Shown here: positions 1,001 to 63,262 of the stretch, in pieces
Layout: every line of letters starts with the position of its first letter
Position numbering within the stretch: the stretch's first letter is position 1
NCBI RefSeq assembly: GCF_000003815.2
Contig: NC_049983.1
Coordinates: 17,452,746 to 17,516,745, forward strand
Direction of reading: 5' to 3'
DNA length: 64,000 nt
Source: Branchiostoma floridae
Taxonomy: Eukaryota; Chordata; Leptocardii; Amphioxiformes; Branchiostomatidae
Notes under the pieces: model-generated
Seen by the model: the letters and a program-made list of their open reading frames with translations, nothing else
Databases searched by the model: none
What the model was told of the DNA's origin: nothing
Position numbers and translations under genes: made by a program

Positions 1001-2790
1001 CCCCCCCTCCCAAAAAAAACACCTTCTGCCAATCGAATGCCCCCAGAGAGGCCAATGAAGGATTTATATCTGGGGGATGGGGGGGACGATGTATTTAACC
1101 TCTATATGTAACCCTAACTTAAAGGTATTAAGTGATCTTAGTATTACTACCTTTATTGTGTTGGTATTCCAGCTAATACTGTAATAGCTATTATGTTTTA
1201 CAGGTGAGTGTGACATGCTGGTATGGGTGCTTTCTTGTTGAGTTTGTGTTCATTGAATGAAAGATTTCCCAAGTGACAGTTTATGTGTAATGCCTGTAGC
1301 CATGTTATATACATTCTGCTATACATATAGAGATAGAAAAGTGTAGTCCATATTCAACACCCAATTGATACTTGCAGATACTAGCTTAGCTAACTATCAA
1401 ATTAAGGTCACTGGTAGCCTGGGACTAATAATGGAATTTCCTGAACAATGTCTCATGTCATTCGGACTCATGAATCATGACACATTTATCGTAGGACCTT
1501 TACCAAAACTGTTAGTTGAGAGTGACTGAGTCCAAAATGCCATGAGCGAAATGACATAGGCTGTTCCAAAGAGATCCTCTCAGTGACAAAATAGTAAGGC
1601 AGTCGCCAGTTTTGTATGAAACTGAGATTGACTATTGATTGGATTATGCCCTGCAGATAATGGGCACTATCCATCAACTCGGCTCCATTAGCTCAGTTAA
1701 TTGATTAACAGAAATAATAATTGCCTCTTACCAGGTACATGTGTCAAACCAGCATAACACAGCAGATATTTGGGCTCTAGGCGTTTTCGGCAGCAATACA
1801 AGCATTTGTTTAGAATCTACTTGATGCTATTTATGCTTTCTAGTAGAATTATTTCTATATGCATAGATGATACGTAACAGATATACATTTATATTATAAT
1901 CATCATGGTATACAGTTTTTTTCCAAAATGTCCTTTCTCTTTCCACCATCATATAGTATATAAAATTATCCATGTACATGTAAATGATGTAACAGTTGTG
2001 TAAGTCTTGCATTGACAGTTTTTGAATAAATGTTACCTCTTATATAAGTTCATATAGTTCACTCCTAATACAAAGCAATAACCGCTCTTTTCCTATTTGA
2101 TCCCATATCTACCCCTGAGGGCACAAGTGACTATGTACAGTTTTGATTCTTTACTGACTCAATCACCTAATTTACTTTCTCAGCAAGAGAGTTGACAGGG
2201 TCAAGTCAGTCTTATGAATTTTTTAGTGCCTGGAGAGTCACTGAGGGAATCCTCCTAAATCCTCTATGCATAATACATTTGTAGTCGAGTCTCCCCGTGC
2301 AAATAGCGCAGCTGGGAGTTAATGGGGAACTGACACATGTTGATACAGTCGTCATTCTTTCGCATTTCTGATTTGAGTGATGTTGCACTCCTCTATTCTA
2401 CTAGGATTCCCACATTTTGTGAGTACCTTTCATGACATTCATGGTGGGATTTCTACTTTTTACATCCACAGACATGGAAGCATCATGTTACCTGTCCCTG
2501 ATATCCTTAATACTTAATCAATATTATTCGTTGTATGTAGATAGTAAGATGATCTTAGTTTTTGGGATTCCACCTTTGTTATCCTTATTGATTTGTTTTT
2601 AAAATGTTCAAAATGTCAATTGAAATCAATGAATTTGGTTTCGACTGTCACGTTGAGTTAACAAGGCCACTGAAAGGTAAAAGCAAACATTCCTTCTAGT
2701 CCCACAGCATTTTAAGCCCATAGTGGTACTAGTAGAAGGTTGTTATCCACCATGTCTTAAACACGGTATTGACAGGCAGAACCCAACCCT
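1001..2790. other. Non-coding intronic or intergenic stretch
   Basis: Contains a short G-rich run (GGGGGATGGGGGGG, about 1073-1086) and AT-rich sequence. No coding exon, RNA gene or inverted repeat could be supported. Confidence 0.4.
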
Positions 2791-2794
2791 CTCC

Positions 2795-3033
2795 TGATCC
2801 TCACCTTTTAGTTTTAGTTTTCCCTCCCCAAACCAAAGTCAGGTACATGTACCCATTTTTACACCTGGCTGGAGTGGGGAAAGTATGTAGTCCTGAGTGC
2901 TGTGGGGATAGTCGTGGTATTACTGGTAAGAGCCTTTCCTAAGGATACAACCTCAGTGGCATGTCAGGGGATTCAAACCCTGGACCTCTGGGCTCTGAGC
3001 CAAATTCCTTAACTGTTACACCATTACACAGTC
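2795..3033 (-). repeat. tRNA-derived SINE
   Basis: Read on the minus strand, it has a tRNA-like head with a box-A-like segment (TGTAACAGTTAAGG) and a box B (GGTTTGAATCC, at about 2970-2980). These are followed by a SINE-like body with GGAAAGGCTCTT and CAGGTGTAAAAATGGGTA blocks. Such heads descend from tRNA genes and are copied by LINE machinery. It abuts the foldback element beginning at 3037. Confidence 0.7.
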
Positions 3034-3036
3034 TTA

Positions 3037-3299
3037 AGCTCTACGCAACAATCCCACTACTCTATAACATCCTTGCTCTATCTACTAGTAACTCAGTCCT
3101 GACAGAGTTTAGACCGTACACTAGCCTGGAGTCTGGCCTTGTTTGCTTTGGTCTGCTCCCAGAGGTTGCTACCCTGCCTTCTGGAGTGGACCAAAGCGAT
3201 CAAGGCTGAACTCCAGGCTAGTGTACGGTCTAAACTCTGTTAGGTCTGAAGTAGATAGAGCAAGGACGTTATAGAGTAGTGGGATTGTTGGGTAGAGCT
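3037..3299. repeat. Foldback MITE with about 92-bp arms
   Basis: The left arm 3037-3132 begins AGCTCTACGCAACAATCCC and reads ...CGTACACTAGCCTGGAGT at its inner end. The right arm 3209-3299 is its reverse complement with only a few mismatches. A 76-bp loop separates them. A transcript would form a long hairpin. Confidence 0.85.
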
Positions 3300-4560
3300 A
3301 GAGTACACTACAGTGACCATCCCTGCAGAGGTGACCTACTTCCACTGGCAGGTGGATAAAGTTGCCCGCACCTCTGGCACACCCCATACCAAATAAGGAG
3401 ACGTTCCAGCAAGTGGTTGAGTTGGGAGCCATCCAGCACATACTTTGTTTTAAAACCAGAGAATGGAATTCCAAAAACTTTAATACCACAGTTTCATGCA
3501 CTTGCTGGAACTTAAAGCTAAGGAAAATTCAGGACATGACTTGAGAAGTCTTCAATTTGTTATTCAAGCACTAGAAAAGTTTTCCTGCGTAAAATCAGCT
3601 TTTGGATTAACGTTATGTCCAGGTAAGGTCTTAACGCCAGGACCTGGGTTGCAATCTTTTAGGAATTGATAGAATTTTGCTTTTGTGTAGGATCTAATAC
3701 TATACCAATAAGGATATCAAGGTCTGTTATGCACAGGGAGAGTTCCCAGCTTTAGGATTACTACTAGTAATGTTATACTTATTTTGGTAAGAGCTTTAGC
3801 AAGGTAATGCAATTTCTTCAGAAATCATCCTGAAGATTTGAATTTACAATGTATTATTATTTTGTCTCATTTTCCCATGTACACTCTTACAATGTTGTAG
3901 ATTTGAGTCTCCTTTGTAAGCTATAACACTTCACTAAGGAATGCTAAACATTTTTCAAGCCATCAAGGTGTAAAATTTTTTTTACTTCTTTGAAAGTTTG
4001 ATGCTGACTTGTTGACTTACAGGACAACAATCCACTATAAATATTCCCTTCACTTTATTCCTGCCACACACATGTGCATGTAGAGGCCGTTTATGTCACT
4101 GCCTATATTGATTCTTTCTTGGCAGTATTTACAAGATTTTTCTGCTGTGATATTGATGTACCTCTTCATGTTTTATTCTGGTTCCGGAAATCAATCTCAA
4201 ATTCAAAATCAGATCTACTGACGATGTACCTCACTCTTGAAGAAGAGTTGTGTCGTTTATAGACTCAATGACAGTGACGACATGTGGAAGAAAGTTTGTT
4301 ATGATTATCTCCATGAAAAATGGCGATACAGTTTTGGGGGTGTCTTTGAGTATGTACATGTCTGTCTCTCTGTCAGTGTGTCTGTTTGTGTTTCCAGATT
4401 TTGTAGTCAGCATGACTCAAGAACCTCTGGATGGATTACAATGATATTTGGTATGTTGGTAGGTGTTGGAAAGACAAAGATCAGGGTCAATTTTTAGCCC
4501 CCTGGTATGTGACCTTGGTACTGCAGCAGAATTTTTTATATGGTCTTTTTTGTGTTGCAG
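3300..4560. other. Non-coding stretch upstream of the F-box/WD coding exons
   Basis: A short inverted pair (GTTCCAGCAAGTG at about 3403 and CACTTGCTGGAAC at about 3502) is present. Otherwise this is AT-rich intron-like sequence ending in the pyrimidine-rich acceptor tract before 4561. Confidence 0.4.
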
Positions 4561-4576: not shown

Positions 4577-7500
4577 ATGGATGTGGCTGCTGGCGGGGAT
4601 GACTACGCCAGTGGAGGTGCCAGCGATTCCGACGGGCCGACCGTCCAGTCTCCCAAACGTGCCAAAAGTCGGTCCAAAGTCTGGGACAGGGTCACCTGGT
4701 TCGCCCGCCGCAAGAGCTCCCGGGGCTGCAGCCAATCAGAGGCGGCGGGGACGCCTCACCCCGGGGCCGCCTGTCTTCCCGACGACCGCATGGACGTGGA
4801 CTCAACTCCGTCCAGCCCGCGAGCGCTGTCAGAGTGTAGCTCGTCCAGCGAAGGGGACTTGAGCATGGCGGAGTCACACATCCGCCACCAGGCGAACCCA
4901 AACTCACAAGTGGACTCTCAGAGCTGCATCAAACCCAGCGTGGCACGGGCGCTCTTTCACGAGATCGAGATGGTTTCCTTGGCAACGCGTAAGCCCAAGA
5001 TCGTCATCCAGAGGAGAAAGACGTTATCGTCGCAATCCTCGGAGGAATCCGACTCAGGGAATTTGTATCCGAGGGCGACGTCGTACCTAGACTCTTTACA
5101 TCCCTCTGTAACAAACTCATCCGCAAAATGTTGCCAAGATGACCAGAACTTGAACTCCGCCCACGACCACCAGTATCGCGCCAGCTTCTCATGTAGACTG
5201 CACTCCCACTGCCCCTCGGCACAGAGCGTACCAAGGAGCGCGGTGGGTCAGACGCCACAATGTTTACACGTCGGTAACAAGAGAAATGCCTCGCGGTCGC
5301 CCAGTCCAAAGCCACGCCGCGGAGACCAGCTGGACACGGCAAAAAAGACCCATAGTAGGAAGCGATCGAATGACGGGAGGTGCTGCGTTTGGACTCCAGA
5401 CTCGGTCCACTGTTTGGGAGCTGGGGGGATGGACGGTACAGGGTCAAGGTCCCCCTCTCCCAGAATGGGCCAGTCCAGCAAACCAGGGAGGGACGTACCA
5501 TTGTCACCCCACCTGGGGGAGGGCAGGAGGCAGCTAGGGGAGGGAGTAGACGGGCCAGAGTTCAAGAAGCGTATGGAGGTAAGAATTATCTTTCTGACAA
5601 GACAAAGGTACCTACAAGAATAACAAATTAACAAGAATCTCCCAAATGTGAATGTTGACCATTAGACAGATGGTCAATATTTGACGAAGAGACGACTGAC
5701 ACCCACAAAGTTTGCACCAAAACCTTTTTCTGATACTTCTGTTTGCCACTTCCATCATTGCCATATCAAAGCATGCCAGTGCTGCTAACCCAGTTGCTTG
5801 AAGACATGCAGCCCGGAGACATGCCAGTTTTGACATTATTTGTCATTCTCAAGAATGACAGAGAGTTGGCCCACTCGTTTTACCCTTTTTCTGTGCCTCT
5901 CTCGTGTATGTCACTCTAACTCATTGTGCCTGAAGAGTCTGAAATATTTCATATCATCTCTGTTTACTTTTGTTCCTCACAGCTGATGATGGACTGGTTT
6001 GGAGACTTCAACGATCAGCAGAAAAACATTGTCATCAAGAGGATACTGGTCAGTACTTTTTACAACCTTACTAGGTCACTAAGAGGATTGCTGATGACAG
6101 TATGCAGGCATTGTTTTATGAATGAAACAAACAGTTGACAAAATAGATCATGAAAGAACGCAGGGAAGGGAGCATGTAGGGAGAATGCAGGGACACTGAC
6201 AGGAAATTAGGTCATAGGTCCCAGAATAGTTTATCTCATTGCCCGTCTTCAGCTTCCTGCTGCCTTATGAAAGCCAGCAGGAAAATGTGCTAGACATAAT
6301 CTGGGAGCATCAAGTGCAAATATGATTTTTAAAACTCCATACTTGTCTGAAAAATATTCAGAGGTGAGAAAGTAGAAAACAAAATTGCTAACGTGAAAAA
6401 AAAGTTACAATTTTTCATCCCCTCTCCTCCAGGACCAGTGTGGACTGCCCCAGATGCACCTGTTGTCGGTTGCCATGGAGCCCATCCTGCACCAGACCTG
6501 TCCTCACAACTGTCAGGACCTGTTGGCATGGTTACCAGCATCCATCTCCATCTACATCCTGTCCTTCTTGGACCCGGGTTCGTTCAATCTACATGTACTA
6601 CTAGTATGTACGCCGAAAAGCAGTTACTCAAGCAACTGGATATGATTTTGGAAAATCATATCCACTCAGTTTCTTGAGAAACTGCTTTGTGGCGTATCTC
6701 ATTACCTGGATGTCTTACCTTCATTGACCTACTTAGCTAATAAGGTCATTGAACCCAAAGTCTTTAGAAAGGACAAGAGTCATAAACTCTTTGTCCCAAG
6801 CTCATGTTCCAAGGATCTTAACGGCCACTGGTCCAATAAAAGAAAACAGCCTAACTGCAAACCTTTCAACAATTACATGCATCTACAACCAGCTGCTTAT
6901 GCGCCAGGTGCCTGCAAAGCTAGTGTGTTACACAGATGGGCAGTTATACTAGCTTTATAGATATAAATACATGTACACAACCAGCCTGGTGCTTTATGAG
7001 ATATTCAAAGCTATCTTCTACAGTTATGAAATCTATCAATATGAGAAATGTTAAATCCTCATCAATTGCACTGAATGACCTGTTATGTTGCAGTGAGCCT
7101 AACCCGTGCCTCCCAGACGTCGCGGGTTTGGTACGAGCTAGCGAACGAGCCGTGCCTGTGGCGCCGGTTCTGTACCCTCCCCACGTGGCAGATGAGCAGG
7201 GCCACCGCACAGAAACAGATGATCAACCACATGCTGCCCGATGGGACCATACATGTGAGTGCACATGGGGTATTTTATTGTACACACAAACTATAAAGAA
7301 ACATACGTATATATGTTATATAAATGTAATGTCATAGTGCATGGGCAAAGGCACAATTGCGTAGAAATACTACATGTATTACATTTGTAGGTACAAAAAT
7401 GGATGGCAAAAAGAACTGTTGATTGAGTAATTGAGTACATTATTGTCTACAAGTCTATGTGCTGCTATTCATGCTTTATAAACAATCATGGTGTCATTTT

Positions 7501-10500
7501 TCCATGAATTTAGGCTTCTCGGTTATGTGTTTTATCGATAAGAAATGGATGAAGGAAGGAAGGAACGAAGGAAGGAGCAAAGAAATAAAAGAAACAATTG
7601 ATTGTTTATTGTTTTTCCAGTGGAAGAAGGTGTTTGGGGAGCGTTACTGCCTGAGAAGAAACTGGCTGCAGGGGACCTGCACTGTGAAGACGTTTGATGG
7701 ACACACACAGGGCATCTCCTGTGTGGTGTTCGACGACACGAGGATCGTCAGTGGTTCATCAGACAAAACCATCAAGGTACATTGTAGCTTAAATCCTTAT
7801 TATATAGAGTAACAAAAGCCTGACTATGTCATACATCTGGCTGCCCTTCTACTGGTAAAGCCCCACTGACAGCAAGGGATTGTATAATACTGGCAATATA
7901 ATACTGGCTAGAGAAACAAGACTAGCCTATGTGTGGCCTGGATTTGTTTTTCATGGTCAGTAAATCTACATGTAAATTATATGGAAAATAACACCAAAGA
8001 AGGCCAATGGAACCAGGGCTATCTCCAGCCTTTATGTTTCATTGTTTTGGTGTTCAGACAGTGAAGTTTAAAATGTCCATCCCAACAAGCAAATTTCCTT
8101 CTCTGGAAGGAAGAACAGATCCTGGAGACAGCCCTGCTTGGATGAATTGGATAGAGGTTTTTTTTTCTAACCTTTATTTAACCTTGGTTCATCTTCGGCC
8201 TTAGCCGTTTTTCAAGATTTCAAGGGTGGAGTTGTGAGTTGCTTGGAAGTGTTGTGTGAAGACTAGCTGACTACTAATACCACTATGTGAGGGATACCAG
8301 CAGCAGTATAATCAAATACTGGATATTACATGCTACTGCTACTTTCCATAATTTTATTTTCTTTACTTCAGGTTTGGAACATCAGGACCAACACGCCGTG
8401 GTCAGTGCTGACCCTGGCCGGACACTCCGGCACGGTCAGATGTCTGCACCTGGAGGGGAACACACTGGTCAGCGGGGCCACGGACAGGACAATAAAGGTT
8501 GGTCAGCACACAAACTGTGACTAAGTGTAGATCAAGAAACATTCACTGCAAACCTTTCACATACATCTATGTTCTGTCTTTCATTACTTGCATTGCCACA
8601 AAATTCAAACATTATGAATGCCTCCTGTACTACTGTGAAATTTAGTTCCCACAAACATAAACCAACTAACAGTTTTAGAAAAGGTCTATGTCGGAATAGC
8701 AATTCAATGTGATTGTTATATATATATATATGTTAAAGACATAATATTATGTTATTTGTGTTGGCTAAAACTTTCAGTTGTCTTTATTCAGAGTCAGTAA
8801 TTTTTCAAATTCCAATACGATTATACATTTCTTCTGTGACCAGAAAGAATCATTTTGGTCTGAAAAAAATCCAACTATATTTTTTCTGAAGACCCCTGAA
8901 TAGCGACACAATAAATCCACATAATCCATCAAAGGGTTATAAAGAATTTTTCAGGTTTGTGTACTAATGATCCCTGGTTCTACTCCCATCCTGCAGGTGT
9001 GGGACTTGTCTATGCAGAGTAGCTGGTCCAGTATCGCCTGCAGGGTCACCATGATCGGACACTCCGACACGGTCAGGTGCCTCAAGGTAACGCAGATAGA
9101 GACTTTGAAATCAGACTTACTCTGAATGATAAGTATCAGTATGATAAGGTCCAGAGTTCGAAACCCCCTGTGTCACCGATTGTGTGCCACTCAAGTGAAC
9201 TGAAAATGAGTACCATTCACCCGGACTCCAGGAAAAATAGTGACATATCAGTCACAAATGGAGATCCTAATTAAAACCAAACCAAACCAATATTACCGGG
9301 TAGTATTGTTGTTGACAATGTTACTTTCATGTATGGAGGTTTGTTTTTTTCGGCATGTCTGTTTGCTTGTATTTGAAAAAAGTAGACTGGATGGTTTCAA
9401 CATGGCAAGTGGGGACACTGACAGGAAATTAGGTCATAGGTTCCAGAATAGGTTATCTCAAGGAGCTTATATCTCAATATAAGCTCCTTGGTTATCTCAT
9501 TGCCTCTCTTCAGTTTCCTGTTGCCTTATGACAGCCAGTGGGAAAATACCATAAACAGAATCAGCGAGAGATTGGCAATAATAAAAAAAAAGAAATTCAC
9601 AAAAACTAAAATAATGAACGAAAAAAGAAATTAAAAAAAAAATTATTTATCAAGCGTATGAGATTTCTTGTTGTTATTGCACCTCAGGTGGATGAAGAAC
9701 GTGTGGTGAGTGGTTCGTATGACCAGACGCTGAAGGTGTGGAACCTGAGAACTGGACACTGTAAACACACTCTCAGGTAACATACAATCAAAGACATTTT
9801 CTTGTTTTGTTATTTGTTACATGTTTGCAATGTTCGGCAAGCCAAAGTGATGTTTACCAAGCACAGTAGGGATATCTTAGCAGGATACTTTTAAAGAATA
9901 CTTGCAGATAGATGTGCAAAGGTCTAGTAGGTGTGACAGTTAGTTCAGTGTAGTAGAAACAGCTGCTGCTGAATCGCATGCCTGAGAAGCGTGTGTTACG
10001 CCAAAAGGCGATTATAACACTGTGCAGGGGTCTCCCTACAGAGTGGAACAACGGCGCTGCGCCACTCCCGAAAATCCTGGCGCCACTCCCCCAATTTTCA
10101 ACTCTATGGGTTTCTCTATGTCTTTTGAGGGCAACTAGGGGGAAAAAACAACTGAATTCCCTGAAGTTTGAGTGAGAGAGGTCTCATATTTTGCAGAGAA
10201 ATGGACACATACACCCTTCCTTTGTGTCAGTGAGCTTGGGTTGGCAGCAAAAATCACACTCCTTTGTTTTTGTCCTATTGTTATGCGTGTAGACAATAGA
10301 TGTTGGTGACTTTTGCATATGATAATCTCATTAAAAAACCTGTTTTTCAAGACAAGGAAGACTGAGAAAAAACAGACAATAGACCTTGTTTATCTTTATG
10401 TTAGCACCAGACTGTGCTGCTAGTAGTGGTGCCAAGCTTCTAAAAGGCTCCTATCTGGTGATTTGCCATGATTTCTACCCAAAATGTATCCCTTGCCTTT

Positions 10501-13500
10501 CTTTCCCATCAAAAATTTTGGTTTTGTGACATTTCTGTTTGCAATTTTCACTCAGCAAGGTGGCCTAGTATGGTGGAAAACTTTACTGTATAAATGCGGG
10601 TGATAAGTTTTTATTTTGTTTGTTGTTGAAAAGAGCCTCCTACTAGTCCTAGATTAATCAACATATGTCAAGTTGCATTTCTTTTATATTTCAATAGATA
10701 TAGCTTATAGTTTGCATTGAAAATGTACTTAACTTGGACATGTATTATACTTAAGTCAATTGGTCTGAATTTGAAAGACTTTAAAGCTTAAGTGTCAGGG
10801 GAAGGCTTCAAATTGTGATTCATTTTTATATTTAAGGCAAAATGCAACAGCTTCTCCAGGAATCCTGCCTCTCCGAACCACTCCCCCCTAATAGCCACGC
10901 GTTACGTTGCATCGGCCGCAGCGCGCCCTCCAGCACCACTCCCCTAAAATTTTCTGGGGAGACCCCTGTAACAGCTATAGACTGGATAATTTTATATCAT
11001 TATCATTTTGAGCTACTTGCCCAGATTAGCACCACTAAATTTACAAGTAAACTTGAAGTATTACAATGCTTATATTTCATTGCATGAAGATGATTATATG
11101 AAGACTTAGATCTCTCTTTCTTCTATACATTACAACAGTGTGGATTTTGATGTAACTTGGTTTTCAGTGAAAAGCTGTTCATTTTTCTAAGTCTACCTGC
11201 AGTGTGTAGTATATCTACTCTGCTGGTTTGCATGTTTTGGTTTCATCAGTTAAGCATTAAGAACGTTGGTGATGTGGTTTTGTTTTGTTTTGTGTCACCC
11301 ATAGAGGACACACTGCTGCTGTTCTATGTGTCCAGTTTGATGATGACAAGATTGTGTCCGGATCAGCTGATAACACCATTAAGGTAAAGTTTTCTGCCTT
11401 TAAACCTCACCTGAATGAGGGTTGATATTTCCCATAAGTTTCTCATATAGTCATAAATCTGAAAATGCCTAGCAAATAGGCTTCAAAATTCAGATTCAGT
11501 CCTTCTTTCCCCAAGACAGTGATCATAAATTCTGAAGATGATTTTCTTTCTGTAAAAAGGATTCCACCTTCTTTTCAGTTATCCTATTAAACTAATAGAC
11601 ATTGATTGGAAGGAATATTACTTTCAAACTGAGGCCACACCAATTTAATTTCTTGGTTCACGGATTTTTTCATAAAAAATATGGAGCGAGAGGGCGAAAT
11701 AAAAATAAAAATAAAAATTGTAAAATGGTTGGGGTATAGGTAACGGCTAATCCAAAACATAAAGAAAAAAAAGTTTTCAGCTTGAAAAAAGTACAAAAAC
11801 ACTATTATTGTACAGTAACAGCACCTGTACCCACACTTTAAGGAGCTTATAATGCAAAGGCCAATTTGCTACACCAGAAAGTTGGTGAATGGTTTCATTA
11901 ATGGTGAAAATTTGCTGAGTGGTAATTTTTACTTTTATTTTTTTTCCCAAAAAATAGGAGCGAGCGAATCCGTGAACCAAGAAATTAAATTGGTGTGGCC
12001 TGAGGCAATAATTTCCTAAAGAAATCTATTTGCAGTAATGCATAGAATAGAATAGAATATTTATGACAGCCTAAATCTGTTATTTGCGCCAACCTCAGAT
12101 ATGGAATATTGAAGGAGAATGTCTGAAGACCCTGATCGGCCACATGGACGCGGTGACTTGCCTGAACTTCACAGGAGACAAGATCGTCAGCGGCTCGCTG
12201 GACAGCGACCTGAAGTTCTGGGACATGCGGACAGGGCTGTGTGTCAGTACGCTGGACTGGACCAGATCTGAGGGGCACACGGGGGTTATCAGGTACCCAT
12301 TACAACAAGGTCCATGCCAGTGGGTTTGGTTAATGTTAATGAGATGAAGTCATTATTAATGATGTGCCTCTTCAGTCAGTCTGAGATTTTGATTCTTAGC
12401 CTGGTATCCAGCTGTATTATAGCTCCTGAGTCTCTTCTTATGAATCAGAAGAGACTCTGGAGCTATAATACGGCTGGATACCAGGCTACTTGACTCTGCC
12501 ATGTACGGCTGTGAATAAATGCTGCTCCGTTAGTTGTATTACTGCGCTTCTGAGTTATTAAATCAGTGTCCTTTGTCCACTGAATGGCGCTACATACATG
12601 TACTGTTATTCTGTTGGTTGCTATACTTGACAACAAATAAGGGAGGATGCAAGATGGTCCTGCTGTAGTCCAGGGCATCTGTTGTCATTTTTTAAATTTA
12701 CGTCCTATGTTGAGGTCTTTTTCTGAACACAGGAGTATACAACTACATATACTTCTAATACATACCACTTAATATGATGGACATGCATTATGCTAACAAA
12801 TAAAGGAATGCATGCTTTCAGAATGATATGTGAAACTTGATGCTCATGATGCATCCAATGGATTTGAAATTTGGACAATGGATTATTGGATTTGTAGTGA
12901 TCAGTGTTGATTTATTGGTGTTCTTCCATCCCAACCCAGATGTCTGCAGGCCGACCACTGGAGGATTGTGAGTGCAGCAGATGACAAAACCCTCAAGGTA
13001 GGTTGATTCTCTACTACATATGTATACACACATCTTCTTCTTCTTTGTTTTTAGGTGGCCACCATCATCTTGTTGATGCCAGTTACTTATCAGATGATCT
13101 AGTACAGAAGGTTGTCAGTTGTACATTGTAGTCTCAGGTAATGTTTAGGTTTTGAAGTTGGGGGGTCTACTGTAAGTGTTAGTGTAGATATGCCACCTTA
13201 TCCCTGAAGGATTCAAGGAATGGGGCAGTCACCATCTCTGCAGGAAGCACACACACATGGGCAGACACATACATACACACACACATACATTAAACACTGC
13301 TGAGTAAAGCCTATCGTATATGTTCACTATCATCATCTATGTGCTCGTCACTCAACACCTGTGTCCTGCAGGTGTGGAGCGTCGAGGACGGGAAACGTCT
13401 GGTCACCCTGCGTAACCACACCGACGGGGTCACGTGTCTGCAGTTCAATGACTATATGATCGTCTCTGGTTCCTACGACAAGACCGTCAAACTCTGGGAC

Positions 13501-13527: not shown

Positions 13528-16500
13528 AGTTACGCCCAACAGTCTCATGTAGTCCGCACAGTCTGCACAATTTGAGTGCTGTGCACAAAGTCAGCAACTT
13601 ATACTTGTGGATTGTTTCCTCCTCCCCATCATTATCACGGGCGGCTTGCCCGGACAAGGTCCACTTTTTCTCAGAGATTGTTTTAGGATAAGATTTATTG
13701 GTAAAGTTTGTGTTGATACATTTTTGCCTTAACATGAATAACATGAATGATACCTGTGAAACAAGCCAAGGATGACCTAAACTAAAACAAAAGAAGGATG
13801 GGAGCTACAGAAAACTAAATTGCTGCAGAGCCTGCAAAAGCTTTTGTTTGAACATCCAAATTTGGAATTATTATTTTATACCTTGAAACTACTAGATTTT
13901 ATTTTGACAAATTGATACTAGGTTTTGGCTTCTTTACCAGCAAACATAAAAATTAGTAAAGCAAATTGAATTCGCTATTCCATTGAAACCTTTGCAAAGT
14001 TGGCAATGTCAGTAAGCAAAGGTAAAAAAATGCAGAAAAATAAACTGAAGACGTTGTGTGTGAACAGAAAACAATGCAACTTTATTATGAACGTTTGTCT
14101 TTTCATCATTATAGTGATACATGTAATATTAAACTTGATCATACTATCATGTGTCTCATATTAGAAACAATACAATACATGACATTATATGAGATATAAC
14201 ATTTACATTTGTATGTATAATCAAAGACTAGTTCCACCTGTTGTGATTTTGGTGCTGTTTAGACTTGCATGTTTGCATCATGAAACTGAACATAATCAAC
14301 TTTACAAGTCCAGTTCTGGTCCAGTATACAGGTAAGCAGGACTACCTACGGTTGGAGCCAGTCAGTAACTCATCAGTTTTGTTTGTTAGTGCTGCAGAAT
14401 TTGACATTGCTCTGCCTCATGAAATGTAGGAAATCTCAACTCTCTGAGTACAGAATGATGTATACCAAAAATCACTCTATGTTGCCAACTTGACTACATT
14501 TTTGTACTATGTTTAAACCATGAGTGTCATGTACTGCAACTGGGTAAACCTTGACATTGACTTTATCTATATGTCCACAATCAGCTTGACATTTCAGCTA
14601 TTCTTCCTATGGTCTATACCTTTATTACATTAATACATCACATAAGAGAAAGGAACCAGAACAATCATACATAAGATGAATTGAGTTAAAGATATTTAGT
14701 TTTAGTCCTTGTCATGATCCTTTACCAGATAAGCTTTCATGAATATAAACCAACAGCAAACATTCCTGATATTTTAACTGAAGAATAAAAGGCATGTTTT
14801 GAATGAATTGCAATCATCTTTCAGAAGCAGTTTTACATTGCTATGATTCAAATAAGAATCTGTTTCTGGAGGATTTGTTAATGATACACTAAGATAACAT
14901 GTCAGGTAATGTGTTGGGATTCAAGATTGTGCAAAAAAATATTTGCAAAGATAAGAAGTACAGTTATAAATTGTTGTTAAACCAAATTCATTTTTTAGTG
15001 CTCCATCCAGTTGTTGTGCACGCAAATTACATACATTGTGTATTAGGACTTGTGCATGCAAGAAGCAGAGTGGGTTGGAATTTTGTTTTACAAAAAAAAT
15101 AGTATCTCTTTTTGCCACAGTTCCGATGTAAAGCAGCTCACAGCAAAATTACTGTTTGTCGATTTTTCTTCAAATTGTAGCATGTAAGACAAGCAGATAC
15201 TTTGAAGTAGTAATTATTTTTTCAGTGTTTTTTTTTTTCTCAATTTAAGATCTAAATGTAGAGAGTTTTAAATGGTATGCAAACATGCGTGCCCCAGGGC
15301 ACCACCGTGTTGAAATTTTGTGGAATTTCTTCTGTAAAAAAAAAAATGTGGAATTTCTTCTGAGGAAGTTACAATTTAATGAAAGTCATACAAATGTATC
15401 AGAATTATAGAAGGTGTGTTTTTAAAGTTGAAAATTTGTGATGTGTGCAATTGTGAGCACTATCACCCGGCGTGTGTAGAACACAGCAAACCTGTCGCAC
15501 AGCAAATTTTGTAGTTGTCTCGATCTCAACAATGGCAATGCAAGTACCGTAAGGGCAACTGTACACCACAGATGTTTACTGGAAATACATTGTTTACATT
15601 ATCATCAACACTGTGTTGGTATGCAGCACCTCAGCTGCCGATTGGTAGAACCTGGAAAAGTCTGACCTATGATTATGAATCAGTATGTACAGTTATGTAT
15701 TATTTACATGAACAAATCAAATTAGCCGGTCAACTTCCAGGTTTTACCATCCAACATGGTAGACAATAAGCATGGTTGAAACTAGAGCAGGCACAGCTAG
15801 ATGCATTGTGGGCAATATGTCCAAGTTGAAAGACTCTGAGATATGAATATAGCATGTCTGGACATGACTGAAGCATTGTTTATAGTAAGAGGCCTAAAAT
15901 GTCGACATACTACCCACAGTCCATCTTGTTGTACATGCACAGTTTCACTTGTGCACTGGCTTATTCTTTCATCTTGGTCATGTGAGGGAGACGAACCTGT
16001 AGAATTATTCCAAGTTGTCCTTGCACACGTATACATGGTTGTATGGATGGTATCAATGTACATGTTGACATTGGCATTGAAGTATTGAGATGGCAGTAAG
16101 CAAAGTGTTGTTGTCATCAACCAATGTTAACATTGAGAGTGGAACATGCCAACTTGGGCAAAACATTTGTACGTTGTCTCGAAAAAATACTTTTCCTTAA
16201 GATGAAATATTTGCAATGTCGTATGCAAAATGATCCTTGTGTCGGAAGTTTGAATAGCAGCATTTGTCAACGTGACTGTATGCAAAATCAAAATGTGCCA
16301 ATCAAGAACTATTTGTATATTAGAAGGTAGAAAAAAATTATATAATCACACTTGAATATTATTCACTGTAAACGATTGTGCCAAACACAATGTAAGTTTA
16401 TATGGTCAGCAACTTTTTACATTTTGTAGGTTGTCAGATGCTAGTATGTTGCAACTGTATCTTAAGTATGATAAATATATAACCTCCGTCTTGTACTAGT
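13528..16500 (+). other. Probable 3' UTR and downstream flank of the F-box/WD gene
   Basis: No further exon is visible after TGA 13525-13527. Possible poly(A) signals AATAAA occur near 14037, 14785 and 16738; which is used cannot be decided from sequence. Between them is AT-rich sequence with no coding signature. Confidence 0.4.
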
Positions 16501-16506
16501 ATAAAT

Positions 16507-16535
16507 CAAGGAGGTTAAAAATTTTAACCTCCTTG
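16507..16535. mobile_element. 29-bp palindromic micro-element B
   Basis: Arm CAAGGAGGTTAAAA (14 bp), 1-nt loop, exact inverted arm. Flanks are TATAAAT (16500-16506) and TATAGAT (16536-16542), 6 of 7 matching, consistent with a 7-bp target duplication. Confidence 0.75.
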
Positions 16536-17096
16536 TATAGATGTACTGTGTGTTATGTAATCTGTAGCCATGTCTGTCCAGTCTGTCACTCTGTAATGTT
16601 GCAGCCTGTACGGTTAGTGGGAGATCCCATGATAGAGAAATGTCACAGTTTTGTACACATTTCTATTTCCTGATTAAAACTGCTGAAAGTGTGACCTCAA
16701 ATAATGATTTAGTGTCTGTTATTTCTAGATGAATGAAAAATAAAGTTTCTGATACTGCTTTCCCACTGCCATCATGAATGACTGGGTTGCGAGTCTATTT
16801 TGTTCTTTAGAAGTGCTCTTAAAAGAGGTAAGTCACCCAAATGTCGATAAGAAATCACACAGGGAAGAACGTTTACATCATACATTACCTATCAACGATT
16901 TAATGACATGCTTTGACAACCTTGTACTAAGTTGTAGGGAAGAGAAAAGCGAACAAAAAGATACAAGTCACAAGCAGAAGAATGTACCATGAAAATTAAA
17001 ACATCATGTGTCGACATGTCAAACATCTCTGGCATCAAGACTTCTGCATGAGTTAACCTTTTCTGTGCTAGGATCAGGATGCCTTTTAAGTTACTA

Positions 17097-18152: not shown

Positions 18153-18368
18153 TAGCCTGGTATCCAGCCGTAATATAGCTCCCGAGTCTATTCTCTCCTC
18201 TTTTCAATTGCAGAGAGGAGAGAAGAGACTCGGGAGCTATATTACGGCTGGATACCAGGCTAGTTTTATACACAATAGGCATTGTAGTTGAATCAACCTT
18301 CCCCTGCTGCCTGGTCCTGAAACCAATACAAATACTCGGGAGCTATATTACGGCTAGATACCAGGCTA
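18153..18368. mobile_element. TAGCCTGG foldback element, composite copy with target duplication
   Basis: A full foldback (18153-18262; arms starting TAGCCTGGTATCCAGCC) is followed by about 73 bp and then a lone right arm (about 18335-18368). The whole is flanked by GGAAGCGT at 18145-18152 and 18369-18376, so one and a half elements appear to have moved or been duplicated as a unit. Confidence 0.8.
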
Positions 18369-27385: not shown

Positions 27386-27690
27386 GTCACAAGGACTTTT
27401 TATCGGAGGGAGGCAGACTTAAAATCAGGGCTATCCTTACACTCCTCCGACCAAAATCTCAAATTGGACTATTGGATTCTGCGGCAGCCCGCACTAGTCA
27501 ACAAACGGACAAAGCTTGATTTCGATGTCGCAAAAATTGTATTGATTAAGCTGCCATCTATTTAGGCAGCCATCTTGGGATCACTTGACCCAAATCAACC
27601 AATCACAACATTCAATCGTGGACAACTGACCCACACGAACCAGTCAAACTGTTTTGGCAGGTGCACCCCTATCTTCATGCATGAAAAGAT

Positions 27691-27720
27691 CAAGGAGGTT
27701 TTATTGATAAAACCTCCTTG
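27691..27720. mobile_element. 30-bp palindromic micro-element C with 7-bp target duplication
   Basis: Arm CAAGGAGGTTTTAT (14 bp), loop TG, exact inverted arm. Perfect direct repeats AAAAGAT flank it (27684-27690 and 27721-27727). Confidence 0.85.
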
Positions 27721-27950
27721 AAAAGATCAACTGAAACGTTACCACAACTTTTATATAAAACCAGTTTCCTTCCCATTATAGGGTTCTAGTATCGCATATC
27801 GTCCTTTCCGTAGCATTGCGTCTCATAGCTGTGCATGCAGTACAGCACTGGGCTACTCCATTTTCCATGGCGCGTGTTTAAAATTGAGTATGATGAAGCC
27901 TATCTACGCAGTCACGTGTGGCTTCCCTCTCCGTCAAAAAAGAAAATAAA

Positions 27951-53759: not shown

Positions 53760-54090
53760 TCTTAACCTGATGTTCATGCGTTTTGTGTCTCATCGATGTT
53801 CATCACTTTCTTGTATTCATGTAAGCAAGGCGGTTAAAAAAAACTTGATGTAAGAGTTGAATTGCTGAAAAATATTTCATCCACGCTCTCCATGCCTAAT
53901 ATATGCACAGGAAAGGTGGAGGTCATATTTTTGGAAGGGGCATCTGTGTGTGTATTTGTGAACACAATACCTTGAGAAAGCCTAGTTGTGGTTAGTTCTT
54001 GTTATGGCACTGCAGGACTTCTGGTAGGTGGAACCATGGAACATAACAGGTACCAAAAATTAAGGGCCCAATGGGAAAAATCCACTAGGG
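53760..54090. other. Intergenic spacer after Rap1
   Basis: No gene or repeat recognised; a short (TG)n run is near 53948. Confidence 0.4.
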
Positions 54091-54255: not shown

Positions 54256-55283
54256 AGCTAGGTTCCGGTAAGCGATTTGCAGAGAATCGAACGGGGTGAG
54301 ACTGTTCACGCACTGAAGGAAATCGCGCGGGTTCGATTCTCTTCACCTGAATGCGGAGCGCGCACGGCGATGGTGAGCCTACACTACCGTGCGAGACTAT
54401 TCCCTTGTTGATGAAACGCGCACGAGCACGATTCTCATCGCTTGAAGGCGGAGCGCGCACGGCCGATCGTGAGCCAATACTACCGGCCAACTAGACAAAT
54501 TAAACGTTCTAATATCTTCAATTCAAGGCGCCGCGCGAACCCCCGCCATTTTGAAAGACGTCGGGTACGATGACACACTTTTGACAGCGATACTTGTCGA
54601 TAACGTATAGTAAGACTCACTCTATTTCTGGGTTGGCACTTTGCGGGAATGTAGAAACGATAACGCTACTAATTACGTAAGTCAGCAACAAAACAGAGAC
54701 AAATAGCACACGTACCACCAACATCGTTATTTTCTACTAAAACCTTCTACAAAACAGACTTACATACCACAGCAAATTCATAACCTTACATGACATATAT
54801 ACAAATACATCATACCTATCCTGTGTATTCAGAGTTTACGCTACAAAACTACTCACCCTTACAACTCACATAACGTTTACAAACTTCGTACAAAATTTAG
54901 GACATGGGCCGTGATGACGCTACACTACATTACTAGTATACCATTCTCAAGTCATGTAAACAAATCGAGCGTTTGCTATTTTGTAATTAAATCAAACGAG
55001 CGTGCAAAACGTAGACCAGCAAGTATCGTATGTATTCAAAAGTTTACACTACATGCCGAAGTATTTACAGATTAGTACGTACAAATTTACAAAATCGCTA
55101 CGAAATTGTCGGTTAACAAAATGGTGTCTGCCCACGCTATCCCGGCGTCCTTTGCAGTATGTTGCCCGGCTTCTCCGTGTTTTCTACCTGAAAGAAAACG
55201 CTGAAAAGAAAAGCAAAGACAAGAATTAGCAATGGTTAATTACGAAAGAAATTGGATGAAAAAATCGTCAATAGAGCCAAAGA

Positions 55284-56042
55284 ATGAAATATCAATTGAG
55301 TGGAATTAAACAAGTCGAGGAGCCGAAAACTGAACCGGCAGAGGTCGAGGCTGCCGGTGTCCACAGCACGCCGCTAGATGAGTCGCAAATGAACTTCTCG
55401 CTACTGCAAGAAGACATAGTCCCGGACACTGAACAGGCAGCTGCAGAGGTCGACGTTCACCACAGCACGCCACTGCAAGCCCCACAGCCACGCCGCTGCC
55501 CCGAGCAGATCACCCCCCACAGCATCGCCCATAAGAAGCGCCTTTACAAGCAACTCGTTCGTCCACATTTGGAATACTGTGTACAAGCATGGTCGCCCTG
55601 GCTTTAAAAGGATATTAAGTTGATCGAGGCCGTACAACGGAGAGCAAGCAAAATGATCCCTGAATTACAAGATTTGACGTACAGTCAACGGCTCCGGAAG
55701 ATGAATATAACTACACTGGCAGTAAGGCGATTCCGAGGGGATATGTTAGAGGTATTCAAGATTATCAAGGGACTAGAAGGGATAGACAGAACCACGCTCT
55801 TCACACCCTTACAAACACCTTACAACACCAGGGGACACCATCTGAGACTGTCAATACCCAGTACCAAGCTGGAAATCCGGAGAAGATCATTCGCTGTAAG
55901 AGTAGTAAAAGCCTGGAATAAACTTCCATCTGAGGTAGTTACCCAGACCACAGTGAACGGTTTCAAGAATAAGATCGACAGATACATAGAGGCCGAGATC
56001 GTCGGAGGAGCGGCAGTGGGCTACCAGCCTTCCAGCTCCTGA
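55284..56042 (+). pseudogene. Non-LTR retrotransposon RT C-terminal fragment with one nonsense codon, fused to an unknown N-terminal frame
   Basis: From about 55520 the frame reads like the extreme C-terminus of CR1/L2/Jockey-type reverse transcriptases: KQLVRPHLEYCVQAWSPWL, then LIEAVQRRASKMIPEL, LDMLEVFKIIKG-like and RVVKAWNKLPSEVV words. TAA at 55605-55607 interrupts it in the same frame (AAA to TAA would explain it). Residues before this (55284-55510) are acidic, contain two related HSTPL segments and do not resemble RT. It ends at TGA 56040-56042, followed by a short repeated TTCAGGTAAA tail, as at LINE 3' ends. Fingers, palm and endonuclease are missing, so it is not an active element. 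Confidence 0.75.
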
Positions 56043-56165
56043 CTGCAGAGACAAGCCACGGAGTCTCTGCGGTTCAGGTAAATTCAGGTAAAATAAGAAG
56101 GGCGATCTCGCCGAGACAGCCCAGCAGAAGACACAAGAGGCCAAGGAAGGTCTGGACGCCTTCGG

Positions 56166-56362
56166 GCCCATCAGGTGCACCGTAATTTATTTTTGACATT
56201 GAATATACCACCAAAACTTCACCCACAGTACATTTAGGTGCATCGTAATTTATTTTTGACATTTGAATATGCCGCCAAAACTTGATCCACAGTACATTTA
56301 GGTGCATCGTAATTTATTTTTTTCATTTGAATATGCCGCCAAAAGTTGACCCGCAGTGCATG
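56166..56362 (+). repeat. About 63-bp tandem repeat, 3 copies plus a distant fourth
   Basis: The unit contains AGGTGCATCGTAATTTATTT, ATATGCCGCCAAAACTTGA and CACAGTACATTT blocks. A diverged copy (TGCCGCCAAAACTTGACCCG) is at about 56570-56592. All lie within the composite element. Confidence 0.88.
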
Positions 56363-56733
56363 ACGGGTTAGCGTCATCATGCCAAGACGCCATGTTTTTC
56401 TTTGTCCAAGTAGCGTAGTTAATGTTTCCGCGTAGAATTTAAATGCTTATGTACGATATCTCGGCCTGCTATGATAAGAAATTGTGACAAATCAAATGAC
56501 AGTGTAAATGTATCTGTAAGATTCTGAACAGTTATTGAAGGTTTTATTATTATTTTTTACATTTAAATGTGCCGCCAAAACTTGACCCGCAGTGCTATGT
56601 TTTCATGTGTCTGAGTTACGTAGTGTTTCCACGTAGAATTTAGATTCTGTACAATATCTCGACCTGCGTACATCTTTATTCCATCGTGTAATACTTGTAC
56701 ATACATATATCTGAATACTAGTATTAGCTGCAC

Positions 56734-56767
56734 CAAGGAGGTTTAATAAAAAAACACAACCTCCTTG
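56734..56767. mobile_element. 34-bp palindromic micro-element D with 7-bp target duplication
   Basis: Arms CAAGGAGGTT/AACCTCCTTG with a 14-nt A-rich centre. Perfect direct repeats GCTGCAC flank it (56727-56733 and 56768-56774). It is inserted within the composite element. Confidence 0.82.
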
Positions 56768-57017
56768 GCTGCACGTCGTTCGTTCGGCCAGCGCCAGCCT
56801 GTAAGTTCATGTACATCGTTCATCTTCATACTTTAGCGCTGCTCATAGTTAGATCGAAACTGTCGACGTTCCATTTGTACCTGTAGAAAAAGAAAACAAT
56901 ACTATTTACTTCATGTCCTTTTTCACTCTTGATTATGATACAAATGTCTAAATAAAGGTTTGTAACTAAATTGTAAGTCTCAGTATCGTGAGTGCGTTGT
57001 TTGTGTCTTGCTCAATC

Positions 57018-57028
57018 CAAGGAGCTTA
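57018..57028. mobile_element. Micro-element E, single-arm remnant
   Basis: Only CAAGGAGCTTA remains, but it is flanked by perfect 7-bp direct repeats CTCAATC (57011-57017, 57029-57035). It may be a deleted element or an imperfect excision footprint. Confidence 0.55.
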
Positions 57029-57453
57029 CTCAATCCTAGTACACGTGCAATTTATTTGCCCCCTCCCTCCGCTGGGTAAGTTACTGGTGCGTAACTTCGG
57101 AATGTCGTATATGCCGAGAAGTATAAGATGTGCTGACAAATGAGCAATACAGATAATCCAATACAAATGGGCAATACAGATATGTCTAGTAGGCCGGTAG
57201 TATAGTATTGGCTCACGATCGCCGTGCGCGCTTCGCCTTCAAGCGATGAGAATCGCGCCCGTGCGCGTTTCATCAACAAGGGAATAGTCTCGCACGGTAG
57301 TGTAGGCTCACCATCGCCGTGCGCGCTCCGTATTCAAGTGAAGAGAATCGAACCCGCGCGATTTCCTTCAGTGCGTGAACAGTCTCACCCCGTTCGATTC
57401 TCTGCAAATCGCTTACCTGTTCTTACCTGACCGTGGGGTCTGCTTGGAGACCA

Positions 57454-59048: not shown

Positions 59049-60400
59049 GTTGTGCAAAGGGTTTACGGAAAAGGCTGGGCTGTCTACCTGGGCTGTCTAC
59101 CAGGGCTGTCTACCTGGGCTGGCTATCACGTCAGGCTACTTGGACCTACGAAAGCCCATTGGGACAAAAGCTGTTTTAGCAGTAGGGGTGTGTCTGAAGG
59201 ATCTGTGTGTTATTATGTGAATGAGTTGTGTGAAGTGGCAGTGTGTGAAGTAGCTGTGTTTGAAGGAGCTGTGTATGTTACATAACCAGAGGTTCTGGGT
59301 TCGAATCAGTTGATATGCCACCGATTTTGTACAGTTGGGAAGGACTCTTAAAAAGAGTACATATCTTCGGTAATTATAAGGGTCCCTCAGATAGGGCAAA
59401 TGACTTACGGAAAAGACTAGGGGCCCTTCCTTCCCAGTGTAAGTGGTTCAAAACCTTAAGTCTTATGGCTACACCTGGGGTAATTGCTGTCGTATTGAGG
59501 TCACCTAAAAAGTTAGCACCGAATGGCAGCAGTTCTAGACCCTTGCATTTTACTTTACTTTATTTCAGGCTCTAACTGGCCCATAAGACACATGGACAAA
59601 CATGAAAAACATAAAATATGTACAACATTTTAGACCATCATGAAAATATTATGACTAAGTATAGAGGCGCCGCCAGAGATTGGGGAAGAAAGAATTGTGG
59701 TAAAAAGAGTTGGACCTGAGCACAGACTGCACAATGCTATTGGATAAATTGAAAAGCCTACTTACAAATGAATGGCACTGTTTGCGCCATCTGGCGTCGA
59801 AGGTATCCGTATTGTTAAATACAAACATTTCACTTGCGCTACAAGATCTAGGAAAATTCATTATTATACGGAAACAATTGTTGTAAGCAATGCGACATTT
59901 CGACAGAACATTCGAACGAAAAAAATTCAATTTTAGCAACGATTCAATTGTCGATCTTAATGTATGGCGTAGAAGGACCCTGACAGCCACTAAAGAATGG
60001 CTCCTGGACGCCTTTGACAAACTAGCCACCAGTCTTAAGACTAATCCAATCAGCCCAATAAATCGTTTTAATAGCCCTTCCCAATGGCACAAGATCGGTG
60101 GCATATCAACTGATTTGAACCCAGAACATCTAGGTAATGTAACACACACAATTGCTTCACACAAAGCCCCTTCACACACCGCTCCTTCAAACACAGCTCC
60201 TTCACATACAGCCCATTCACATACAGTTCCTTCACACATAGCGTATTCATTGAGCACAAACAACCCTACTGCTAAAACAGTTTTTGTCCCAATGGGCTTT
60301 CGTAGGTCCAAGTAGCCTGACGTGATAGCCAGCCCAGGTAGACAGCCCAGGTAGACAGCCCAGGTAGACAGCCCAGCCTTTTCCGTAAACCCTTGTGCAA
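59049..60400. mobile_element. Inverted-repeat element with about 310-340-bp arms
   Basis: The left arm 59049-59360 and right arm 60060-60400 are inverted copies: GGGTTTACGGAAAAGGCTGG, repeated GGCTGTCTACCT units, CTTGGACCTACGAAAGCCCA, a GTGTGAAGGAGCTGT-type minisatellite (longer in the right arm), then a box-B-like GGGTTCGAATCAGTTGATAT. The arms enclose a reverse-transcriptase fragment. A long RNA hairpin would form if transcribed. Confidence 0.8.
59655..59900 (-). pseudogene. Non-LTR retrotransposon RT C-terminal fragment, minus strand
   Basis: The minus-strand frame shows words typical of the last part of non-LTR reverse transcriptases: RIAYNNCFRIIMNFPRSCSA, SEMFVFNNTDTFDA, then SFVSRLFNLSNSIVQSVL, ending at a stop at 59655. 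The catalytic domain is missing. It is enclosed by the inverted arms 59049-59360/60060-60400. Confidence 0.65.
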
Positions 60401-61218: not shown

Positions 61219-61607
61219 TAGGCCTAGGAAAAAAAATGTTGTGTTTCCTGTTTCCCTACCTACCCTAAAAAAAACTGCCGACCCTAGACTTTTTTTTGGG
61301 GTGGGCAGTGGAGTCACATAGCTTCCAGTTAGAATTTTTATTTGGCCTTCTTCCTATTGAAGTAAAACACTGCTTGTCCCATCTAATGAAGGATAAATGT
61401 ATCTACATGTATCATGCACAAATTGACACTACAAGACAAGGGTCATCATACATTTCAGTTTACTTGTTTCAACTGTATTGTAAATATGTATCACTAGAAT
61501 TTTGGCCAGCCTAAAAAAAATAAAGAAAAAAAAGATGATCCCTACTACCGACCCTAATTTTTTCAGGACTGAAACAGGAAACACAACATTTTTTTTCCTA
61601 GGCCTTA
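61219..61607. mobile_element. MITE with TAAGGCCTAGG ends
   Basis: The left end TTAGGCCTAGGAAAAAAAAT, then GTTGTGTTTCCTGTTTC, is mirrored at 61570-61607; a second inverted pair CCGACCCTA lies further in. The interior of about 390 bp is non-coding. It is probably in an intron of the zinc-finger gene. Confidence 0.8.
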
Positions 61608-61832
61608 CTACATTGAGTATATACATACGTATTCAACCTTGTAAATGGACTCGACAACTCTTCGTTCAACTCTACAGCTACAAAGCAAATCTCTATATTT
61701 TCTTAATGATGTAACGTTGCTGCACTATTATACGAGAATGCCAAGTAGAAAATTTTTACAAGTAACGTTAATAGTGTTGGTAATTTTTACAATACAGCTA
61801 TGACTAATTTGATAAATTCTTTGATCTTACAG

Positions 61833-63262
61833 ATAATCAAGATATGGCTGAATCCAACCTTGGATGCCATGATGCCACCAATGAGAAACCTGAAGTCCAT
61901 GAGGAGAGCGGGTATGAGACAGCTGAGAGGTCTACCTTGTCCCAACATACGAGAACTCATACAGGAGAGAAACCATACAAGTGTGACCAGTGTGACTATT
62001 CTGCAGCCCTTAAATCCAGTTTGGACAGCCATGTACTGAAGCATACTGGAGAAAAACCTTTCATGTGTGGACAGTGTGGGTACAGGGCAGCTCATAAATC
62101 TAACTTATCCAAACATATGAGGACACACACAGGAGAGAAACCCTACAAGTGTGACCAGTGTGACTATTCTGCCGGGAGCAAGTTTGCTTTGAACCAGCAT
62201 GTCTCCACACACACTGGTGACAAACCCTACATGTGTGGGGAGTGTGGGTACAGGGCAGCACAAACATCCCACATAAACCGACACATGAGAATTCATACAG
62301 GACAAAGACCCTTCAAGTGTGAGCACTGTGACTATTCTGCAGCCCAGAAATCCGTTTTGAACAGCCATTTAGCTAAACATACAGGTGACAAACCCTACAT
62401 GTGTGGGGTATGTGGGTACAGGGCAACTAGAAAGTCTCACTTATCTGACCATATGAAATCTCACACAGGAGAAAAACCTTTCTTGTGTGAAGTGTGTGGG
62501 TATAAAACAGCTCACAAGTCTCATCTTACTGTCCATATGAGAACTCATACAGGTAACATTACTGAGAGGCCCTACATGTGTGGGGAGTGTGGGTACAGGG
62601 CAAAGCAGAAATCTCACCTGTCAGACCATATGAAAACACATACTGGTGAGAAGCCTCTCATGTGTGACCAGTGTGGGTACAGGACTGCTAAGAAGTCTCA
62701 CTTGGCCCAACACATGAGAACTCACACTGGTGAAAAACCCTACATGTGTGGGGAGTGTGGGTTTAGGACAACTATGAGGGCCAACTTGTCTTTCCATATG
62801 AGAACTCACACTGGAGAAACCACTTGCACTGAAAAAAAATTCAAGTGTGACGAGTGTGGGTACAGGGCAGCTAGGCAGTTGCACTTGTCCCAACATATGA
62901 GAACTCACACGGGAGAGAAACCCTACAAGTGTGATGAGTGTGACTATTCTGCAGCTCTTAAATCCAGTTTGGACAGCCATCGACTATTAAAACATACTGG
63001 TGAGAAACCTTTCATGTGTGGAGAGTGTGGGTACAGGACAGCTTATAAACCTGCCTTATCCAAACATATGAGAACTCATACTGGCGAGAGACCCTTCAAG
63101 TGTGACTATTCTGCAGCAAAGAAATGCACTTTGGACATCCATGTATTGAAACATACTGGAGAAAAACCCTTCATGTGTGAGGAGTGTGGTTACAGGTCAA
63201 CTCAGAAGTCGACCTTATCCCAACACATGAGAACTCATCATACGGGAGAGAAACCCTACTAG
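61833..63262 (+). CDS. Poly-C2H2 zinc-finger protein, terminal exon
   Basis: Acceptor TGATCTTACAG (61822-61832) opens the exon; the first ATG is 61844, giving 472 codons to TAG 63260-63262. A DNA-binding role is expected for Kruppel-type arrays. After about 45 residues (one finger ghost lacking Cys, ending HTRTHTGEKPY) come 15 tandem 28-residue fingers with TGEKPY/F linkers. Fingers alternate between CDYSAA and CGYRAA types, most regularly in fingers 1-6 and 11-15. Finger 14 has lost one Cys (KCDYSAAKKC), so 14 are intact; finger 12 has one extra residue between its His; fingers 7 and 10 carry extended linkers; finger 15 has a duplicated His before its linker. No KRAB, BTB or SCAN domain is visible; upstream exons could hold an effector domain. 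Use of the internal ATG versus an upstream start is unresolved. Confidence 0.85.

Follow-up and report, generated by a model that had tools for sequence, protein, structure and literature searches.

Small palindromes with 7-bp target duplications in the lancelet genome as very probable excision footprints of P-superfamily transposons

Introduction

P elements are DNA transposons whose transposase cuts the non-transferred strand 17 nt inside a 31-bp TIR (PMC7776569, PMC10983969). The junctions left upon excision in Drosophila vary in length: in Table 1 of PMC2895639, by our own count, 19 of 63 measure 28-34 bp, 30 are shorter and 14 longer. Other members of the P superfamily in Drosophila, 1360 and Galileo, make 7-bp duplications of their target (PMC3276498, PMC4168063), and for 1360, an element of Drosophila, these have been described at 274 of 279 sites, with the motif GTTNAAC (PMC3276498). 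The Galileo paper (PMC4168063) nowhere uses the term "footprint".

In this work, we analysed a window of 64,000 nucleotides from Branchiostoma floridae (contig NC_049983.1, positions 17,452,746 to 17,516,745), where a first-pass annotation had described four palindromes of 29-34 bp with CAAGGAG...CTCCTTG termini and 7-bp flanking repeats. These had been compared with hAT, mariner and piggyBac elements, leaving out the P superfamily, and interpreted as a family of minute transposons. We conclude with high confidence that these hairpins are instead end-joining excision footprints of P-superfamily DNA transposons with ends CAAGG[A/C]G[G/C]TT.

Palindromic copies in the window

All four hairpins lie exactly where they had been annotated, and their perfect arm lengths were counted inside the flanking repeats. 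Footprint 1 (9452..9497; none of these features is assigned to a strand) consists of a 32-bp palindromic remnant (9459-9490, arms of 14 bp) between two copies of GTTATCT. Footprint 2 (16500..16542) has a 29-bp palindromic remnant (16507-16535, arms of 14 bp) between TATAAAT and TATAGAT, and footprint 3 (27684..27727) one of 30 bp (27691-27720, arms of 14 bp) between two copies of AAAAGAT. In footprint 4 (56727..56774), where GCTGCAC flanks a 34-bp remnant (56734-56767) with arms of 10 bp, the two 17-nt halves are identical for the first 10 bases and then differ. The flanking repeats are perfect in three hairpins and agree at 6 of 7 positions in footprint 2, just as described before.

Two more copies, absent from the first-pass annotation, were detected via direct repeats around lone ends. 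Footprint 5 (53819..53854) is a trimmed copy, whose 22-bp remnant CAAGGCGGTTAAAAAAAACTTG (53826-53847), with the right end cut back to CTTG, lies between two copies of ATGTAAG; footprint 6 (57011..57035) is one-ended, with only the left end preserved as an 11-bp remnant, CAAGGAGCTTA (57018-57028), between two copies of CTCAATC. The 7-bp repeat is still perfect in both. Comparison of the 10 ends available from the six copies, eight from the two-ended copies plus the two left ends of the trimmed ones, shows that the first ten bases, CAAGG[A/C]G[G/C]TT, are common to all of them and that the sequences diverge beyond this point. An inverted repeat at 54256-57428, with arms of 208 nt that are 95% complementary and 2757 nt apart, encloses footprints 4 and 6.

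Footprint 1 has a paralogous uninterrupted counterpart on the plus strand (6190..6307), with a single target copy, TTTATCT. When the flanks of footprint 1 are joined without the 32-bp insert and one 7-bp copy, they align to 6190-6307 free of gaps (118 bp, 85.6%), which makes the insert and the duplication the derived state. An empty site, of the kind that the first-pass annotation had proposed to look for, is therefore at hand for this copy, though a paralogous one; as a sequence comparison, it would fit insertion followed by excision and plain insertion equally well.

The annotation had also held that the shared termini and flanks could not be due to chance, and the controls agree. Hairpins with arms of at least 10 bp and perfect 7-bp flanks, of which the window has three, were absent from 200 dinucleotide shuffles of it, and the looser class with arms of at least 6 bp and perfect 7-bp flanks appeared 20 times in the 200 shuffles. 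Lone ends, defined by at most one mismatch to CAAGGAGGTT, had a perfect 7-bp repeat within 45 bp in 2 of 8 cases (P 0.005), as compared with 77 of 5588 sites in 1842 shuffled decoys. The narrower pattern CAAGGAGGTTN{1,16}AACCTCCTTG had 17 matches in a prokaryote genome collection, none of them with fewer than four mismatches over the 7-bp flanks. Chance palindromes are thus ruled out by the shuffles, the decoy sites and the prokaryote control. An unfiltered search for sequence over-represented beside direct repeats was swamped by tandem repeats.

Regarding other features of the window, a Pfam scan of its 21 ORFs of at least 120 aa found no P-type transposase; the ORFs passing the curated cut-offs belong to WD40 and zinc-finger families, and a long ORF of C2H2 zinc fingers spans 61808-63259. 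No known non-coding RNA or tRNA was found in the window, and a viral_contigs search gave 0 matches. A 1334-bp element at 59059-60392, whose inverted arms measure about 140 nt (96%) and which has the 9-bp direct repeat TTGTGCAAA at both ends as well as internal tandem repeats, could be of the Mutator or foldback type. Long hairpin repeats starting with TAGCCTGGTATCCAGC are present at 12397-12488 and 18153-18368, the latter with a third arm and the 8-bp direct repeat GGAAGCGT, and two perfect 35-bp inverted arms starting with AGGCCTAGG lie 316 nt apart at 61220-61605.

Genome-wide copies and their target site

The genome-wide search suggested by the first-pass annotation supports its observations. 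In the whole 513-Mb assembly, the pattern CAAGGAGN{5,30}CTCCTTG has 3211 matches, versus 53 for the reversed pattern. Flanks were read for 46 copies, out of 50 among the matches listed (3211 in total), and the 7-bp flanks proved perfect in 25, with one mismatch in 10, with two in 2 and worse in 9, which amounts to at most one mismatch in 35 of 46. Flank lengths of 5, 6, 8, 9 and 10 bp gave no comparable peak among the same 46 copies, with one perfect match at 8 bp. The nine copies whose 7-bp flanks do not match count against the footprint interpretation; one of them, L018, turned out upon re-reading to be a scar trimmed to 15 bp whose 7-bp repeat is perfect, and in another, L019/L022, the repeat is shifted by one base.

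Local transposition has been ascribed to P elements (PMC7776569). The window holds four strict copies versus a genome mean of 0.4 per 64 kb, a local density from which nothing is to be inferred, since the window was chosen because copies had been noticed in it.

Tandem arrangements were seen at two loci. At L055 (2653-2725), two tandem palindromes, (C)AAGGACGTTACATCA...TGATGTAACGTCCTTG, have GTTGAG between them and are flanked by GTTGAGC; this is a sister end type in duplicated form. At L061 (1439-1515), [A/G]TACTAC occurs three times at intervals, with a hairpin separating the second copy from the third and a similar half-element separating the first from the second, which is a tandem duplication across a scar.

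The consensus of the target site is GTTWAAC, as derived from 36 perfect 7-bp duplications, of which 28 belong to hairpins, six to long elements and two to trimmed copies. Of 64 palindromic motifs, GTTNAAC has the top rank, with a score that no random set out of 20000 reached; a first motif test, on the six window copies alone, had given rank 2 of 64 (P 0.005). The Galileo motif, GTANTAC, fits more poorly than that of 1360.

Probable parental elements and a candidate transposase

The first-pass annotation had suggested a search for a longer element sharing these ends; long elements with ends of this kind do exist, and one of them encodes transposase domains. They are known for a sister end type only, the end of the copy at 9459 being CAAGGAGCTTATAT, so that the link between the window copies and the parents rests on the sister type; the window scars would derive from elements like those described here. 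The end CAAGGAGCTTTTATCA has 549 and 559 matches on the two strands of the genome (control 0), with at least four convergent pairs spaced by 1187-1190 bp (about 1.19 kb) among the matches listed. A longer end, CTTTTATCAGNAGGAGAGAG, which extends past the expected cut, has 40 and 37 matches (control 0), and by our reading these 77 places comprise 31 convergent pairs and 15 lone ends. Of the pairs, 27 span about 1.18-1.21 kb, and the others 1.4, 1.5, 4.1 and 8.4 kb.

Sequences were retrieved for six long elements, of 1187, 1188, 1187, 1190, 4111 and 8442 bp, and all six are flanked by perfect 7-bp duplications. Their TIRs are about 31 bp or longer: the two ends agree at 28-31 of the first 31 bp, with no difference at all among these 31 in the 8442-bp element. 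Each of the six also has a 12-bp subterminal inverted repeat, whose distance from the element end is 114/124 bp on one side and 51/52 bp on the other. The four elements of 1187-1190 bp are mutually 98.1-99.6% identical, and L062, of this class, has no ORF longer than 142 aa. The 8442-bp element resembles the 1187-bp one only in the left 560 bp (81%) and the right 115 bp (83-92%). Within the window, 1722 pairs of ends up to 20 kb apart yielded only three hairpins with a perfect 7-bp repeat and no long element, and the window plus 44 loci (233 kb) added one long case, a 73-bp tandem hairpin.

The 8442-bp element (L067; G000:C19:10308772-10317333) contains a P-type transposase ORF of 767 aa at positions 1420-3723, identified by its match to the Pfam family PF21787 (TNP-like_RNaseH_N, E 8.6e-22), and a downstream ORF matches PF21789 (TNP-like_RNaseH_C, E 3e-8). 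In its N-terminal region, the 767-aa ORF has a match to PF12560, the RAG1 importin-binding family (E 7.1e-8), and a PDB search returned only a weak match to RAG1 (E 0.22). Neither a THAP nor a GTP-binding domain was matched in the four ORFs scanned, of nine with at least 120 aa in this element. Genome searches with PF21788, the GTP-binding insertion domain, and with PF12017 found no match, and the controls were silent too. A 362-aa ORF on the minus strand (L067 6402-7490) has no Pfam match. Judging from these domains and ends, the 8442-bp element is a candidate autonomous parent and a candidate source of the enzyme.

These elements bear on the idea that the hairpins are footprints of some other superfamily that makes 7-bp duplications. 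Such a duplication alone names no superfamily, and at donor sites of the Mutator-like Muta1, which lack a duplication, up to 13 bp of the TIR were occasionally left behind (PMC5225508). However, P-type RNase H domains are encoded here by an element that has the same TIRs together with a 7-bp duplication, and both the architecture of TIRs plus subterminal repeats and the 1360-like target motif point the same way, which leaves another superfamily barely conceivable as the source.

Junctions and the probable position of the cut

Junctions were analysed for the sister end type with known parents, where the pattern CTTTTATCAN{0,28}CTCCTTG has 296 and 317 matches in the genome (control 2 and 4), and 100 rows among the matches listed gave 88 unique junctions. 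Every match to this pattern retains, by construction, 16 nt or more from one of the ends, and the outermost seven bases of one end were assumed, not read; inserts are limited to 51 bp, beyond which deletion derivatives would be missed. Within these limits, the length of the longer retained end is 16 nt for 32 of the listed junctions, 17 for 5, 18 for 38, 19 for 7, 20 for 3, 21 for 2 and 27 for 1. It lies at 16-18 nt in 75 of 88 and is greater in 13, although the parental TIR runs past 31. Since position 18 of the parents is G, A or T in different copies, a match at that position will often be chance, and the ceiling is therefore near 17 nt. A ceiling of 16-18 nt in 75 of the 88 listed junctions is what a P transposase with a 17-nt staggered cut predicts.

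At the right ends, between 7 nt, the minimum that the pattern imposes, and 18 nt are retained, apart from one case of 21. As for the joins, 46 of the 88 listed show possible microhomology, 11 are blunt and 31 carry filler, the same classes as reported for P(wa) excision in Drosophila (PMC2895639). An early idea that scars never exceed 34 bp was too strict, with 69 listed junctions of at most 34 bp and 19 longer ones. These 19, together with the three of 88 that keep at least 21 nt, are further points against the footprint interpretation, as are the reliance of the window copies on parents of a sister end type and the recurrence of identical junctions (13 of the 88 listed), which copying could also produce.

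The alternative put forward in the first-pass annotation is that the 29-34-bp hairpins are themselves mobile, moved in trans by a cut-and-paste transposase for which ends of about 14 bp would suffice. Shared termini, 7-bp duplications and copies in the thousands would all be expected of such a family, as would the recurrence of identical junctions seen in 13 of the 88 listed. What speaks against it is that inner sequences are unlike one another among the four two-ended window copies and that the copy at 57018 has one end and yet a perfect duplication, where a MITE would present a homogeneous full sequence with both ends. Moreover, the longer end stops at 16-18 nt in most listed junctions, whereas the fetched parents have longer TIRs plus subterminal repeats, and the joins bear trimming, possible microhomology and filler. 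Mobility of the hairpins themselves is thus highly unlikely.

A second alternative is that incomplete gap repair shrank P-type elements in situ, or made very short MITEs that then moved. Internal deletion has been proposed as one origin of the P-related MITEs of Anopheles (PMC1562414), and the copy at C1:3569090, which retains at least 27 nt of one end, would suit it; such a process may account for the three listed junctions that keep at least 21 nt. Its endpoints should scatter, yet 75 of 88 stop at 16-18 nt among inserts of up to 51 bp, and as an explanation of the hairpins we hold it to be very improbable. Derivatives with one intact end are limited to the 15 lone ends of the CTTTTATCAGNAGGAGAGAG census.

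Proposed mechanism of scar formation

According to the footprint interpretation, each hairpin would begin with the insertion of an element that duplicates 7 bp of its target, preferably GTTWAAC, as seen for the long elements. A staggered cut by the transposase would follow, through one strand at the boundary of the element and through the other some 17 nt into the TIR, a step suggested by the junctions and by the biochemistry of Drosophila P. On each side, the donor would thus be left with a 7-bp copy plus a 3' tail comprising about 17 nt of terminal element sequence. End joining would close these equal, inverted tails, either bluntly or via microhomology, and could trim them or add short filler. 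The expected product is a target copy, up to about 17 nt of one end, up to about 17 nt of the other in inverted orientation, and a second target copy, hence a palindrome typically of 20-34 bp, at times longer because of filler or trimmed to a single end.

The resulting scar would be immobile because it lacks both the inner part of the TIR and the subterminal repeats. Each excision without template repair would leave one scar while the element moves on, so that scars could outnumber elements without any of them being mobile. For one end type, roughly 300 short junctions were found versus 31 intact pairs.

We consider it somewhat probable that about three thousand germline excisions of P-superfamily elements are preserved as a readable archive in this chordate genome, that at least one of these elements codes for a transposase whose N-terminal region is of the RAG1 type instead of THAP, that the scars record both the 17-nt cut and the end-joining spectrum of the host, and that the near-identical full-length copies reflect recent or present activity. 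Such an archive would be a natural record of P-type transposase cut sites and of germline break repair, data otherwise obtained from engineered assays such as that in flies (PMC2895639). It would also account for small palindromes with target duplications that can be mistaken for the smallest known transposons, and the combination of P-type catalytic domains with a RAG1-type N-terminal region bears on the origin of the non-core part of RAG1. No earlier account of a scar archive of this kind was found in the literature searched, a scope that leaves subscription journals and Repbase outside.

Comparison with known systems

The footprints of the Drosophila P element likewise consist of a duplicated target, inverted end pieces of at most 17 nt, and joins with microhomology, filler or neither (PMC2895639). 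They differ from the lancelet copies in having an 8-bp duplication and CATGATG ends, instead of 7 bp and CAAGGAG, whereas the copies described here are natural and number about three thousand per genome by pattern count. The 31-bp TIRs and 11-bp internal repeats of the P element (PMC7776569) represent the same architecture as that of the long elements. 1360 and Galileo share the 7-bp duplication, and the 1360 motif, GTTNAAC, agrees with the consensus obtained here, the likeness to 1360 being one of duplication length and target motif.

Among chordates, the Pdre2 / zebrafish THAP9 element is also a P-type element with subterminal inverted repeats, which has a 13-bp TIR, CATACCTGTCAAC, an 8-bp duplication and a THAP domain (PMC10983969). 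In L067, by contrast, the N-terminal match is of the RAG1 type, and the four scanned ORFs gave no match to THAP. A mollusc transposon that Panchin and Moroz reportedly described in 2008 as N-RAG-TP is said to encode a protein with a RAG1-like N-terminal part and to have relatives in the lancelet, and the 8442-bp element could be a member of this group.
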